From an uncultured Candidatus Hydrogenedens sp. (lineage in GTDB: Bacteria > Desulfobacterota_D > UBA1144), in NCBI GenBank assembly GCA_902609885.1, contig CACLTT010000001.1, positions 140,723-204,722 of the forward strand: 64,000 nucleotides of DNA, in the 5' to 3' direction. The position numbers and the translations under genes were made by a program. Shown here one piece after another: positions 16,748 through 40,187 of this stretch. The notes under the pieces were generated by a model. It did not search any database and was not told where the DNA came from. It was given only the letters and a program-made list of their open reading frames with translations. The stretch's first letter is position 1; each line of letters opens with the position of its first letter.

Positions 16748-18261
<1,514 letters not shown>

Positions 18262-18278
18262 AACTGGAGTATTCCAGT

Positions 18279-18307
18279 GCTCGATACTTTCACGTGTCTT
18301 CTTCTAA
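18279..18307 (+). repeat. 3' arm of the 16S rRNA processing stem
   Basis: GCTCGATACTTTCACGTGTC followed by TTCTTCTAA pairs with 16696-16723. A separate small hairpin CTGGA-GTAT-TCCAG (about 18264-18277) lies between the 16S end and this arm. The CACGTG inside the arm explains a parS-like look-alike at this place. Confidence 0.75.
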
Positions 18308-18323
18308 ACATTCAACTTCAGCG

Positions 18324-18397
<74 letters not shown>

Positions 18398-18420
18398 TAA
18401 GATAGAGCTCTGAATTACAG

Positions 18421-18493
18421 GGGGGTGTAGCTCAGTTGGGAGAGCGCCTGCTTTGCAAGCAGGAGGTCGTCGGTTCGATCCCGATCACCTCCA
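18421..18493 (+). tRNA. tRNA-Ala (TGC)
   Basis: Acceptor GGGGGTG pairs with CACCTCC (one G-U pair). D arm AGCTCAGTTGGGAGAGC, anticodon loop TTTGCAA (TGC) and T arm GTCGGTTCGATCCCGAT are clear. No encoded CCA. It lies 23 bases after tRNA-Ile in the 16S-23S spacer. Confidence 0.97.
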
Positions 18494-18530
18494 GAACTCT
18501 CATCTTTTTGTTTATAAAACAGAGTTATTT

Positions 18531-18555
18531 GAAAATTTAAGAGAAGGCAATAAAT
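18531..18555 (+). repeat. 5' arm of the 23S rRNA processing stem
   Basis: AAATTTAAGAGAAGGCAATA is the near reverse complement of ATTATTGCCTTCTTTTAAAT at about 21657-21681 downstream of 23S. Pairing encloses the 23S gene. A second, inner pairing joins TACTTCGTAATTAAG (18619-18633) with CTTAATTACGAAGTA (21621-21635). Confidence 0.75.
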
Positions 18556-18626
18556 ATTGATTGAGATTAATTATAATTATTAATCAAAGATCCTTGGTGA
18601 AATGGATAAGTACATATGTACTTCGT

Positions 18627-21629
<3,003 letters not shown>

Positions 21630-36728: not shown

Positions 36729-37145
36729 ATGGAAGAATTTATTACCTTATCAAAAAAAATTGAATTCTCTGCTTCCCATAGGTATTGGAATGACTCATGG
36801 TCAGAGGAAGTAAATTTAAAGCATTTTGGTAAATGCACCAGTAAGTATGGCCATGGTCATAATTACGTTTTAGAAACCACCGTTGAGGGACCTGTTGATC
36901 CAGATACAGGGATGATAATTAATATTTACAATTTAAAGCCAATTTTGAAATCTGTTCTAAAGCAATTTGATCATAAATTTTTGAATTTGGATACAGATTT
37001 TTTTGAGGATTTAATTCCCACCACAGAAAATTTTGCAAAAATATTATATGAGTGTATAGATGAGAAGCTAAAAGATACTAGATGTAAACTCCTGAAAGTT
37101 AGACTTTACGAGACTAAAGATTTATTTGTGGATTATTGGAAATAA
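36729..37145 (+). CDS. 6-pyruvoyl-tetrahydropterin synthase homologue, copy 1
   Basis: T-fold enzyme of 138 residues. Zinc histidines are in FSASHRYW and in the motif GKCTSKYGHGHNY, where the catalytic cysteine stands five residues before HGH (CX5HGH). That spacing is the one in mammalian PTPS; QueD enzymes have CX3HGH. The partner residues FDHKFLNLD, TTENFAK and the pterin-anchoring glutamate in LYETKD are also present, so it looks active. PTPS converts dihydroneopterin triphosphate to 6-pyruvoyl-tetrahydropterin. It opens a tight four-gene operon, ending directly at the ATG of copy 2. Confidence 0.88.
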   Translation: MEEFITLSKKIEFSASHRYWNDSWSEEVNLKHFGKCTSKYGHGHNYVLETTVEGPVDPDTGMIINIYNLKPILKSVLKQFDHKFLNLDTDFFEDLIPTTENFAKILYECIDEKLKDTRCKLLKVRLYETKDLFVDYWK

Positions 37146-37559
37146 ATGTCAGAAAATTGTACGTTAACTAGAATTTATTCCTTCAGTGCAGCACATAGAT
37201 TGCATAATGATAAATTTACAGATGAAATGAATAAGCAAATTTTTGGCAAATGTAATAATCCAAATGGCCATGGTCATGACTATTATCTTGAGTTAACAGT
37301 TAGTGGAGATGTTTCAGCTGATACAGGTATGATTATTAATATTGAAGAGTTAGATTTTGAAGTACATAAAGTTATAGATATATTGGACCACAAAAGGCTT
37401 GATATTGAGATTGATTATTTTATAAATATTAGAGCTTCAGGAGAGAATATTGCAAAATATCTATGGGATCAGTTGGTAAATATTATTCCTCAACCTGCGT
37501 ATCTTTATCATATTAGACTATGGGAAACATCTGAGAATTTTTTCGACTATAAGGGGTAA
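37146..37559 (+). CDS. 6-pyruvoyl-tetrahydropterin synthase homologue, copy 2
   Basis: 137 residues, starting with no gap after copy 1. Motif FGKCNNPNGHGHDYYLE is almost the eukaryotic PTPS active-site block, again CX5HGH. FSAAHRLHN, LDHKRLDIE, SGENIAKYLW and LWETSENF complete the zinc and pterin site. It looks more like bona fide PTPS than copy 1. The two proteins may form mixed hexamers or act on different pterins. folE begins 3 bases downstream. Confidence 0.92.
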   Translation: MSENCTLTRIYSFSAAHRLHNDKFTDEMNKQIFGKCNNPNGHGHDYYLELTVSGDVSADTGMIINIEELDFEVHKVIDILDHKRLDIEIDYFINIRASGENIAKYLWDQLVNIIPQPAYLYHIRLWETSENFFDYKG

Positions 37560-37562
37560 ATA

Positions 37563-38417
37563 ATGAATATCATTGAATTGACATGGGAAGATGTAATAGC
37601 AAGAATTGAGTATGTTAAAAAGAAGAACAAAATAAAATCAAATACTAAGATATACGGTGTTCCCAAGAACGGAATGATCATTACAAGTTTTTTTGGCTGC
37701 GTAAGCGTTTATGATCCTGAAAAAGCGGATTTTATTATTGATGACATTATAGATTCTGGAAAAACCAAAAAAAAATATAAAAAACTATATCCAAAAAAGA
37801 AATTTATTGCTTTATTTGAGAAAGACAAAAAGAATACTTGGATTAATTTTCCATATGAAAAGAATACAAAAGAAGACCATCAAGATTTAGTTGTAAGATT
37901 ATTGCAGGTTATAGGCGAAGATCCCACAAGAGAAGGACTTCAAGATACTCCTAGAAGATTTATTGATGCTTTTCATGAATTCCTATCACCTCCAGATTTT
38001 GCAATGACTACTTTTGATGTTGAGAATACAGATGAAATGATTGTCCAGTTAGATATTCCTTTTTATTCTTTTTGCGAACACCATTTATTACCTTTTTTTG
38101 GAAAAGGCTACATAGCATATGTTCCCGAAAAAAAGATTGTAGGATTGAGTAAACTTGCAAGATCTCTTGAGATGTTTTCAAGAAGATTACAAAACCAAGA
38201 AAGGATTACTAATCAAGTTGCTGAATTTCTTCAAAAAGGCTTAAATCCTAAAGGAGTTGCAGTAGTTCTTAAAGCGAGACATATGTGTATGGAAATGAGA
38301 GGTGTTAAAACATCAGATACTCATACAATCACGAGTAAGCTTTTAGGAAGCTTTAAAAGTGATGAAAGAACTAGAGCGGAATTTCTAAATCTAATAGGTA
38401 ACCACAGGAATTTATAA
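37563..38417 (+). CDS. folE: Phosphoribosyltransferase-like domain fused to GTP cyclohydrolase I
   Basis: Residues about 100-284 are GTP cyclohydrolase I: zinc Cys171 and His174 in [36 protein letters not shown], and Cys242 in [10 protein letters not shown]. It converts GTP to dihydroneopterin triphosphate, the PTPS substrate. Residues 1-95 are an extra domain with [12 protein letters not shown] and the PRPP-loop pattern DDIIDSGKT (60-68), typical of type I phosphoribosyltransferases, but truncated compared with full PRTases. Usual GCH I is about 190-220 residues without it. The domain could bind a nucleotide or regulate the enzyme. A Shine-Dalgarno (AAGGGG) precedes the ATG. The stop overlaps the SDR start (TAATG). 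Confidence 0.92.
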
Positions 38418-39115
38418 TGAAGACTGTTGTAATAAGTGGGGGTACATCGGGGATTGGAAAAAGATTAGTAAAATTATTCTTAAATGAGAAAATGAAAGTT
38501 TTAACTTTTTCAAGTAAGAAAAAAAATATAATTTCTTTTAATAAAGAGTTTAAAGAATTCAAAGATAATCTTTTCTGTTATCAATGTAATATTAGTGATC
38601 CAAAAGATGTAAAGAAAATCTCTGCAATAATTTCTAGAAAATTTAAAAAAATAGACTTTCTTATTAATAATTCTGGAACAAATGTTTTAGGTCCAATAGG
38701 AAAAATTAACGTTAAAGATTGGAAGAAAATAATTGATGTTAATCTTACAGGTCCATTCTTATTAACCCAAAATTTATTAAAACTTTTTAAGAAAAATTCT
38801 GTAATATTGAATATGGGGTCAATTGCATCAAGACAAGGATTCCCAAATTGGTCTTCTTACTGTGCATCAAAATTCGGATTAAAAGGATTTACCGAATCAT
38901 TAAGAGAAGAATTAAGACCAAAAGGTATTAGGGTTGTACATGCCGAGGTAGGCGCTACCGATACAGGCCTTTGGGATAATTTAGAGGGTGATTGGAATAA
39001 AGAGTCGATGATGAAAGATTTGGATGTTGCTAAATTCATTTTAAAAAATATAATTGATTCAAACAGTGTAAATGTTGACGAAATATTTTTAATGCCTCCG
39101 GGTGGAATACTGTAA
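38417..39115 (+). CDS. Short-chain dehydrogenase of the pterin operon (sepiapterin reductase-like role)
   Basis: Classical SDR of 232 residues with GGTSGIGKRLV, LINNSGTNVLG, the catalytic serine in LNMGSIASRQG and the YxxxK motif YCASK. It ends with MPPGGIL. Its start overlaps the folE stop by one base, so it is translated with the pterin genes. In tetrahydrobiopterin synthesis an SDR (sepiapterin reductase) reduces 6-pyruvoyl-tetrahydropterin, and the context suggests that job. Sequence alone shows only an SDR; a role in another pterin side chain is equally possible. Confidence 0.75.
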   Translation: MKTVVISGGTSGIGKRLVKLFLNEKMKVLTFSSKKKNIISFNKEFKEFKDNLFCYQCNISDPKDVKKISAIISRKFKKIDFLINNSGTNVLGPIGKINVKDWKKIIDVNLTGPFLLTQNLLKLFKKNSVILNMGSIASRQGFPNWSSYCASKFGLKGFTESLREELRPKGIRVVHAEVGATDTGLWDNLEGDWNKESMMKDLDVAKFILKNIIDSNSVNVDEIFLMPPGGIL

Positions 39116-39149: not shown

Positions 39150-40187
39150 ATGAACATTGATAACTTAGATACTGAGCTTTTAAATATTTTGCAATCAAAT
39201 TTTCCTTTGGATGTTAAGCCTTTTGAATCCATTGGAAATAAATTGGGTATATCTGAGCTTGAAGTACTTAAAAGAGTAGAAAACTTAAAACATATTAAAT
39301 ATATAAGACAAATAAGTGCAATTTTTGATACCAGAAGTATGAAATATAAATCATCTTTGATTGCAATGTCTTTTGATGATGACAAAATTGATGCTGCCGC
39401 AGAATTAATAAACTCACATCCTGGAATAACCCATAATTATAAAAGGAATCACTTTTATAATTTATGGTTTACCTTAGCCGTTCCGCCAAATAGTGCTTTA
39501 GGGTTAGATAAAACTGTTGATATACTAGCAAAAAAAACAAATGCTAAATCCTCAAGGATCCTTCCTACCTTAAAATTATTTAAGATTGGTGTAAAGTTGG
39601 ATATGACAGGTAAGGATGATATTTCAAAAACTGAGGAAAATGATTTTTATGGGGAAGCAAATATTTCTAACCATTTTGATTTTATGCCTGAAGACATTGA
39701 TATTATTAAGGAAGTTCAGGAAGATTTTCCTTTAGTTGCCGAACCTTTTACAGTAATTTCTTCAAAACTTGGGATTTCGGTAAATGATCTTATATCTACT
39801 TTAAAAGTCTTTCAAGCAAATGGGATTATGAGACGCGTTGCCGCAATTCTTCATCATAGAAAAGCAGGATTTAGGGCAAATGCTATGGGAGTTTGGGATG
39901 TTCCAATCGATAGAATTGAAGATATTGCACCAAAAATGGCATCCTTTAAATCTGTTAGTCATTGTTACAGGAGACCAACTTATCCAGATTGGCCCTATTC
40001 GTTATTCACTATGATACATGGTAGATCTCCTAAAGAATGTAATAGTCTTATTAAAAAATTATCAGAGGTAAGTGGAATCAATAAATATGACGCACTATAT
40101 AGTTCTAAAGAATATAAGAAAACTAGATTGAAGTTTTTCTCCCAGGATCAACTTGACTGGGAAAAAAATATTATAGGTGGTAATTAA
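39150..40187 (+). CDS. Fused siroheme decarboxylase (AhbA-AhbB/NirDL type)
   Basis: Two tandem AsnC/Lrp-like units of about 150 residues each, with HTH-like N-terminal halves (LDTELLNILQSNFP and DIIKEVQEDFPL). The first carries THNYKRNHFYNLWFTL (residues 94-109) and the second HCYRRPTYPDWPYSLFTM (271-288), both signatures of siroheme decarboxylase subunits. The complex removes two carboxyls from siroheme to give 12,18-didecarboxysiroheme, a step of the Ahb heme pathway or of heme d1 synthesis. Usually AhbA and AhbB (or NirD and NirL) are separate or NirDL fused. It is followed by hemA and hemC, which supports tetrapyrrole function over gene regulation. Confidence 0.85.
   Translation: MNIDNLDTELLNILQSNFPLDVKPFESIGNKLGISELEVLKRVENLKHIKYIRQISAIFDTRSMKYKSSLIAMSFDDDKIDAAAELINSHPGITHNYKRNHFYNLWFTLAVPPNSALGLDKTVDILAKKTNAKSSRILPTLKLFKIGVKLDMTGKDDISKTEENDFYGEANISNHFDFMPEDIDIIKEVQEDFPLVAEPFTVISSKLGISVNDLISTLKVFQANGIMRRVAAILHHRKAGFRANAMGVWDVPIDRIEDIAPKMASFKSVSHCYRRPTYPDWPYSLFTMIHGRSPKECNSLIKKLSEVSGINKYDALYSSKEYKKTRLKFFSQDQLDWEKNIIGGN

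Follow-up and report, generated by a model that had tools for sequence, protein, structure and literature searches.

A GTP cyclohydrolase I of phage kinship, fused to a reduced phosphoribosyltransferase-type domain, in the pterin operon of a marine Dadabacteria family

The window analysed here is a stretch of 64,000 nucleotides from contig CACLTT010000001.1 of assembly GCA_902609885.1 (positions 140,723 to 204,722). It belongs to a genome of the marine Dadabacteria (11 contigs totalling 985 kb, with a completeness of 94.6%), a lineage with streamlined marine members (PMC8115339). The window carries an intact gene that encodes two domains in one protein, namely a GTP cyclohydrolase I (FolE) preceded by a domain of the phosphoribosyltransferase (PRTase) type. 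The gene lies downstream of two genes for 6-pyruvoyltetrahydropterin synthase (PTPS). The fusion was found in 12 of the 14 genomes of the family, and its N-terminal domain in none of the 43 other genomes of the class. FolE carries out the committed step for folate, for queuosine and other 7-deazaguanines, and for biopterin-type pterins.

The C-terminal domain matched Pfam family PF01227 with an E-value of 3.4e-65 (219 bits against a cut-off of 27) and passed the curated cut-off of TIGR00063 (205 against 181.6); the FolE fold starts near residue 103 of the fusion. The Zn-binding and catalytic positions C171, H173, H174, H240, C242 and R246 are all present and are unchanged across 46 aligned fusions. 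We take their counterparts in E. coli FolE to be C110, H112, H113, H179, C181 and R185. The roles of these residues are well established for the family, and the C-terminal domain is probably an ordinary, active FolE.

What is the N-terminal domain? A Pfam search gave no match to residues 1-99, and the NCBIfam Gpt models matched the N-terminus weakly (2e-6, below cut-off). PHROG 8995 ('phosphoribosyl transferase') matched the domain at 6e-10, and a profile of the domain found solved structures of xanthine-guanine phosphoribosyltransferase (XGPRT), the Gpt protein of E. coli, with an E-value of about 9e-10. An AlphaFold model of the full-length fusion, made from a 46-sequence alignment, had a mean predicted local distance difference test score (pLDDT) of 92.3, with the N-terminal blocks at 85-97. 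Residues 2-100 of the model aligned with E. coli XGPRT (4jls) over 99 residues (Z 11.9, 2.5 Å), and archaeal purine PRTases ranked after it. In other words, residues 1-100 form a type I PRTase domain in reduced form, of the kind seen in E. coli Gpt; deletion of Gpt residues at about 48-73 and 119-127 accounts for its small size relative to a normal PRTase. An earlier note on this DNA had described a PRTase-like N-terminus, shorter than normal and with an intact phosphoribosyl pyrophosphate (PRPP) loop, in which the motifs YGVPKNGM and DDIIDSGKT stand ahead of a complete FolE. That description holds, except that the stretch of about 95 residues is now extended to about 100. The doubt raised in the same note, that the N-terminus might have no PRTase fold, is removed by the profile match and the structural prediction.

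The residues of the domain were compared in an alignment of 87 N-terminal domains with E. coli Gpt, which included sequences from Dadabacteria, phage isolates, IMG/VR loci and four separate PRTase genes. The 13-residue PRPP-binding motif of type I PRTases is present in the window domain, and Gpt positions D88, D89, D92, G94 and T96 of the PRPP loop are unchanged in all 87 homologues. The pocket is also retained, with K115 and W134 each kept in 86 homologues, P138 in all 87, and glutamate at the D140 position in 86. We take Gpt K115 to contact the purine O6, and W134 and D140 to line the purine site; no open paper confirming these roles was found. The window domain thus resembles E. coli Gpt in its fold, PRPP loop, K115 and W134-P138-[WFY]-E/D140 pocket. 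It differs from Gpt in being fused to FolE and in its length (100 against 152 residues), because the flexible catalytic loop, which in Gpt lies at about 48-73 between the pyrophosphate-loop (PPi-loop) and PRPP-loop halves, and the segment 119-127 are both missing, as they are in all 87 homologues. A further difference lies in the PPi loop, which is RGG in Gpt and in most viruses but KNG in the window and in every Dadabacteria sequence aligned; overall, its arginine is kept in 72 of the 87 homologues and G39 in all. The retention of the pocket together with the loss of the catalytic loop points to a ligand pocket whose catalysis is lost or impaired, and suggests binding without efficient turnover.

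Table. Features of the fused gene and its neighbours, in window positions.
Feature	Position	Strand	Basis or remark
PRTase–FolE fusion ORF	37563-38417	+	ATG start, 284 aa, intact
Reduced Gpt-like PRTase domain, residues 1-100	37563..37862	+	PHROG 8995, XGPRT profile matches, AlphaFold model vs XGPRT
PPi-loop motif YGVPKNGM, residues 31-38	37653..37676	+	Gpt S36-R37-G38-G39 region
PRPP-loop motif DDIIDSGKT, residues 60-68	37740..37766	+	Gpt D88-T96
K87, equivalent of Gpt K115	37821..37823	+	86/87 homologues
WINFPYE, equivalent of Gpt W134-D140	37839..37859	+	W 86/87, P 87/87, E 86/87
GTP cyclohydrolase I domain, residues 110-278	37890..38396	+	PF01227; CEHH 171-174, H240, C242, R246 retained
PTPS paralogue 1, C-x5-HGH (CTSKYGHGH)	36729..37145	+	PF01242; tree: vertical
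PTPS paralogue 2, C-x5-HGH (CNNPNGHGH)	37146..37559	+	PF01242; tree: vertical
Short-chain dehydrogenase (SDR)	38417..39115	+	PF00106 6.5e-48; ATG overlaps folE stop codon

The N-terminal domain is under purifying selection. Among ten family sequences the median ratio of nonsynonymous to synonymous substitution rates (dN/dS) was about 0.10 for this domain and about 0.04 for the FolE part, both approximate values taken from the minority of pairs with unsaturated dS. Mean identity was 72% for the N-terminal domain against 87% for the FolE domain, and each of the 11 family sequences in the alignment has its motifs intact. A chance match does not explain two motifs that occur in 12 of the 14 family genomes within a domain kept by purifying selection; the profile, the structure and the conservation rule this out.

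The fusion is widespread in phages. A tblastn search with the fusion returned 33 phage records at a coverage of at least 80%; the N-terminus, when used by itself as the query, hit nothing but FolE genes. In five isolate phage loci that were read whole, the gene order was queE, queC, queD, folE and a dpdA-like gene. The phage proteins belong to 7-deazaguanine DNA-modification clusters (Queuovirinae, such as Pseudomonas phages JG054/NP1, Vibrio phage VpKK5 and Sphingomonas phage MMDA13, and others), share the two-domain architecture of the window protein at 44-48% identity overall, and are encoded next to queD. Among the best 80 IMG/VR loci there were 76 fusions and four separate PRTase-like genes (L126, L139, L179 and L137). 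The products of the latter have 132-168 aa and retain part of the FolE linker, and three of the four genes have a divergent FolE match closely downstream. In two of the closest viral loci, folE stands beside PTPS/QueD with QueE or QueC and beside terminase subunits, and one of the two also has a DpdA-like gene. Mis-binning of the IMG/VR contigs was considered and ruled out, as folE adjoins terminase subunits and queuosine/DpdA genes in those carriers that were inspected. In Aminobacter phage Erebus, FolE is unfused, and therefore the PRTase domain is not needed in every such phage cluster. Whereas the phage gene sits with dpdA in a preQ0/DNA-modification cluster, the window folE sits in a chromosomal PTPS-II operon. 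Its neighbours are two PTPS-II genes, an SDR gene, ahbAB and hem genes, and not the queD, queE or queC with dpdA that mark such a phage cluster.

Evidence for viral kinship comes from the FolE domain of the window protein itself, to which marine viral fusions reach 72% identity and the FolE proteins of other members of the class no more than 59%. In a 60-sequence tree, the family formed one clade (support 100/99) within a viral clade (100/99), and the class-mates fell elsewhere. Forcing the family and its class-mates into one clade was rejected (approximately unbiased (AU) test, p=4.4e-5), and a 125-sequence tree again placed the family FolE inside the viral clade. A chimeric FolE with a viral front and a native back was also considered and rejected because viral-like identity runs the length of the domain, apart from a near tie in the last 40 residues. 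Both family PTPS genes group with the copies of class-mates and not with viral ones; these groups are clear in a tree with few columns and long viral branches. Class-mates that have FolE carry it unfused, mostly in the same PTPS1-PTPS2-folE order and often with SDR and hemA next. In other Dadabacteria, the native FolE shares the operon slot after two PTPS genes but differs from the window protein in being unfused (187-218 aa), only 50-59% identical and in a separate clade. Because the family FolE lies in the viral clade, the PTPS genes are vertical and the class-mates' unfused folE occupies the same slot, a phage-type fused folE replaced the native gene in place. Transfer from a phage, which the earlier note had named as a possible origin with reference to PRTase-like genes beside FolE in phages, thus has good support from the trees and from the replacement, and separate genes of that kind do occur in viruses (L126, L139 and L179). 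The note had also considered that the fusion might be widespread and already described; it is widespread in phages, and no description was found in searchable papers.

How could a PRTase-type domain serve FolE? The explanation to which we give slightly better than even credence is that a phage fused folE was captured in place and that its PRTase domain acts as a ligand-binding regulator of FolE. On this view, a phage gene for a two-domain GTP cyclohydrolase I displaced the native unfused folE of a PTPS-PTPS-folE-SDR/hem operon in an organism ancestral to the marine Dadabacteria family, and its FolE domain would supply dihydroneopterin triphosphate to the neighbouring PTPS enzymes. The N-terminal Gpt-type core retains the purine pocket along with the PRPP (5'-phosphate) loop, and has lost the mobile loop that closes the active site in catalysis. 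It may therefore bind a purine nucleotide or a related end-product, such as a GMP/GTP-type nucleotide, PRPP or (p)ppGpp, and the bound ligand would set the activity of the attached FolE. In phages, guanine nucleotides or PRPP would be obvious signals, and the ligand is perhaps preQ0, an end-product and guanine analogue, or its nucleotide. The activity of the FolE domain, the loss of PRTase turnover, the binding of a ligand and the regulatory effect on FolE are what we infer, and allosteric sensing would fit an anatomy in which the pocket is kept and the catalytic loop is lost. A precedent for allosteric control of FolE is animal GTP cyclohydrolase I, which is controlled by tetrahydrobiopterin (BH4) and phenylalanine via GFRP. 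GFRP is a separate, unrelated protein, whereas the candidate regulator in the window is a fused PRTase-type domain. Among PRTases, pppGpp acts as an inhibitor of E. coli XGPRT (IC50 45 uM) and is still bound by hypoxanthine phosphoribosyltransferase (HPRT) with the loop deletion delta 70-76 (PMC6783271). A fuller version of the proposal, which we hold only tentatively, is that a silenced Gpt-type PRTase became a built-in allosteric sensor of FolE, evolved in phage DNA modification for control by end-product or nucleotide, was captured by a streamlined ocean family and now controls core pterin synthesis there.

Several observations weigh against a captured regulator. When more of the HPRT loop was removed (delta 69-77), binding of pppGpp was poor (PMC6783271), and therefore loss of the loop need not spare binding. 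In the family, RGG in the PPi loop has become KNG, and the ligand may therefore differ from that of the phages. As to origin, an unfused bacterial FolE (L047:1225-1953, on a 3.8 kb freshwater contig) joins the marine viral fusion clade, and a bacterial intermediate donor or an older exchange is therefore possible. Finally, the operon is missing altogether in two of the 14 genomes of the family; since these fusion-less genomes are also without both upstream PTPS genes, the locus may be absent from those assemblies, perhaps because they are incomplete.

The main rival is that the N-terminal domain is a working phosphoribosyltransferase. Guanine is released stoichiometrically by DpdA through base exchange, and a salvage reaction in phages could convert this guanine (released by TGT in bacteria) to GMP and then to GTP, the substrate of FolE. 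Viral carriers do encode DpdA-like enzymes, TGT is present in all 14 family genomes, and the PRPP loop and the equivalents of K115 and W134 are conserved, as would suit an enzyme. However, the family has changed both the arginine (R to K) and a glycine (G to N) of the PPi loop, and the absence of the flexible catalytic loop makes a salvage reaction less likely; we consider it improbable, if the strongest of the alternatives. Little behind it comes the possibility that the domain has no ligand and serves in assembly or docking, either of the FolE decamer or of partner enzymes (QueD/PTPS). This would agree with its occurrence only with FolE, either fused or as an adjacent split gene, but the best-conserved residues form the nucleotide pocket and not a surface patch.

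Two other explanations fare much worse. That the fusion arose in Dadabacteria and was acquired from them by viruses would suit the single well-supported clade formed by the Dadabacteria fusions. It seems very improbable, because this clade is surrounded by far more diverse viral fusions, and the FolE of class-mates is unfused and unrelated at this level. That the transfer brought the N-terminus with it as the remnant of a gene in decay is scarcely credible. The domain does evolve faster than the FolE domain, but intact motifs, the low dN/dS and a high-confidence fold are not those of a decaying sequence.

Each part of the protein belongs to a known family. No paper that could be searched describes the combination, its spread in phages or its capture in place by a family of bacteria; the literature covered was open-access text only, which is weak evidence of absence. 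We know of no fused regulatory domain of a bacterial FolE. Because most close viral carriers keep the fusion, 7-deazaguanine DNA modification in phages may have a control point that has yet to be described. On the bacterial side, a core gene within a conserved operon has clearly given way, in place, to a metabolic gene of phage type, and the exchange is fixed across a marine family.

Both upstream PTPS genes, and a third elsewhere in the window genome, carry C-x5-HGH, the motif of PTPS-II (biopterin) as defined in PMC5041015, and the motifs of PTPS-I (CxxxHGH) and PTPS-III (ExxHGH) are absent in both upstream genes. A typical family genome has three PTPS genes. The SDR gene downstream of folE is conserved in the family and is a candidate for a sepiapterin-reductase-like step. 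FolB is absent from all 14 family genomes but, with one exception, most of the class's other families have it, and DHPS-type domains and QueC are present in the family. A biopterin-dependent hydroxylase was considered as a client of the pathway and rejected, since PF00351 is absent from all 14 family genomes. At L254, from a genus of another Dadabacteria family, the order is PTPS1-PTPS2-SDR-hemA with no folE in the slot, and a match to FolE is lacking in many genomes of the genus.

Two further features of the window were observed. A single 16S-tRNA-tRNA-23S rRNA operon lies at 16748-21629 (+). A single ORF at 39150-40187 (+), just upstream of hemA and hemC, fuses the siroheme decarboxylase subunits AhbA (residues 7-152) and AhbB (residues 185-328). 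The Ahb route is usually tied to anaerobes, and a fused AhbA-AhbB in a surface-ocean lineage may merit attention.
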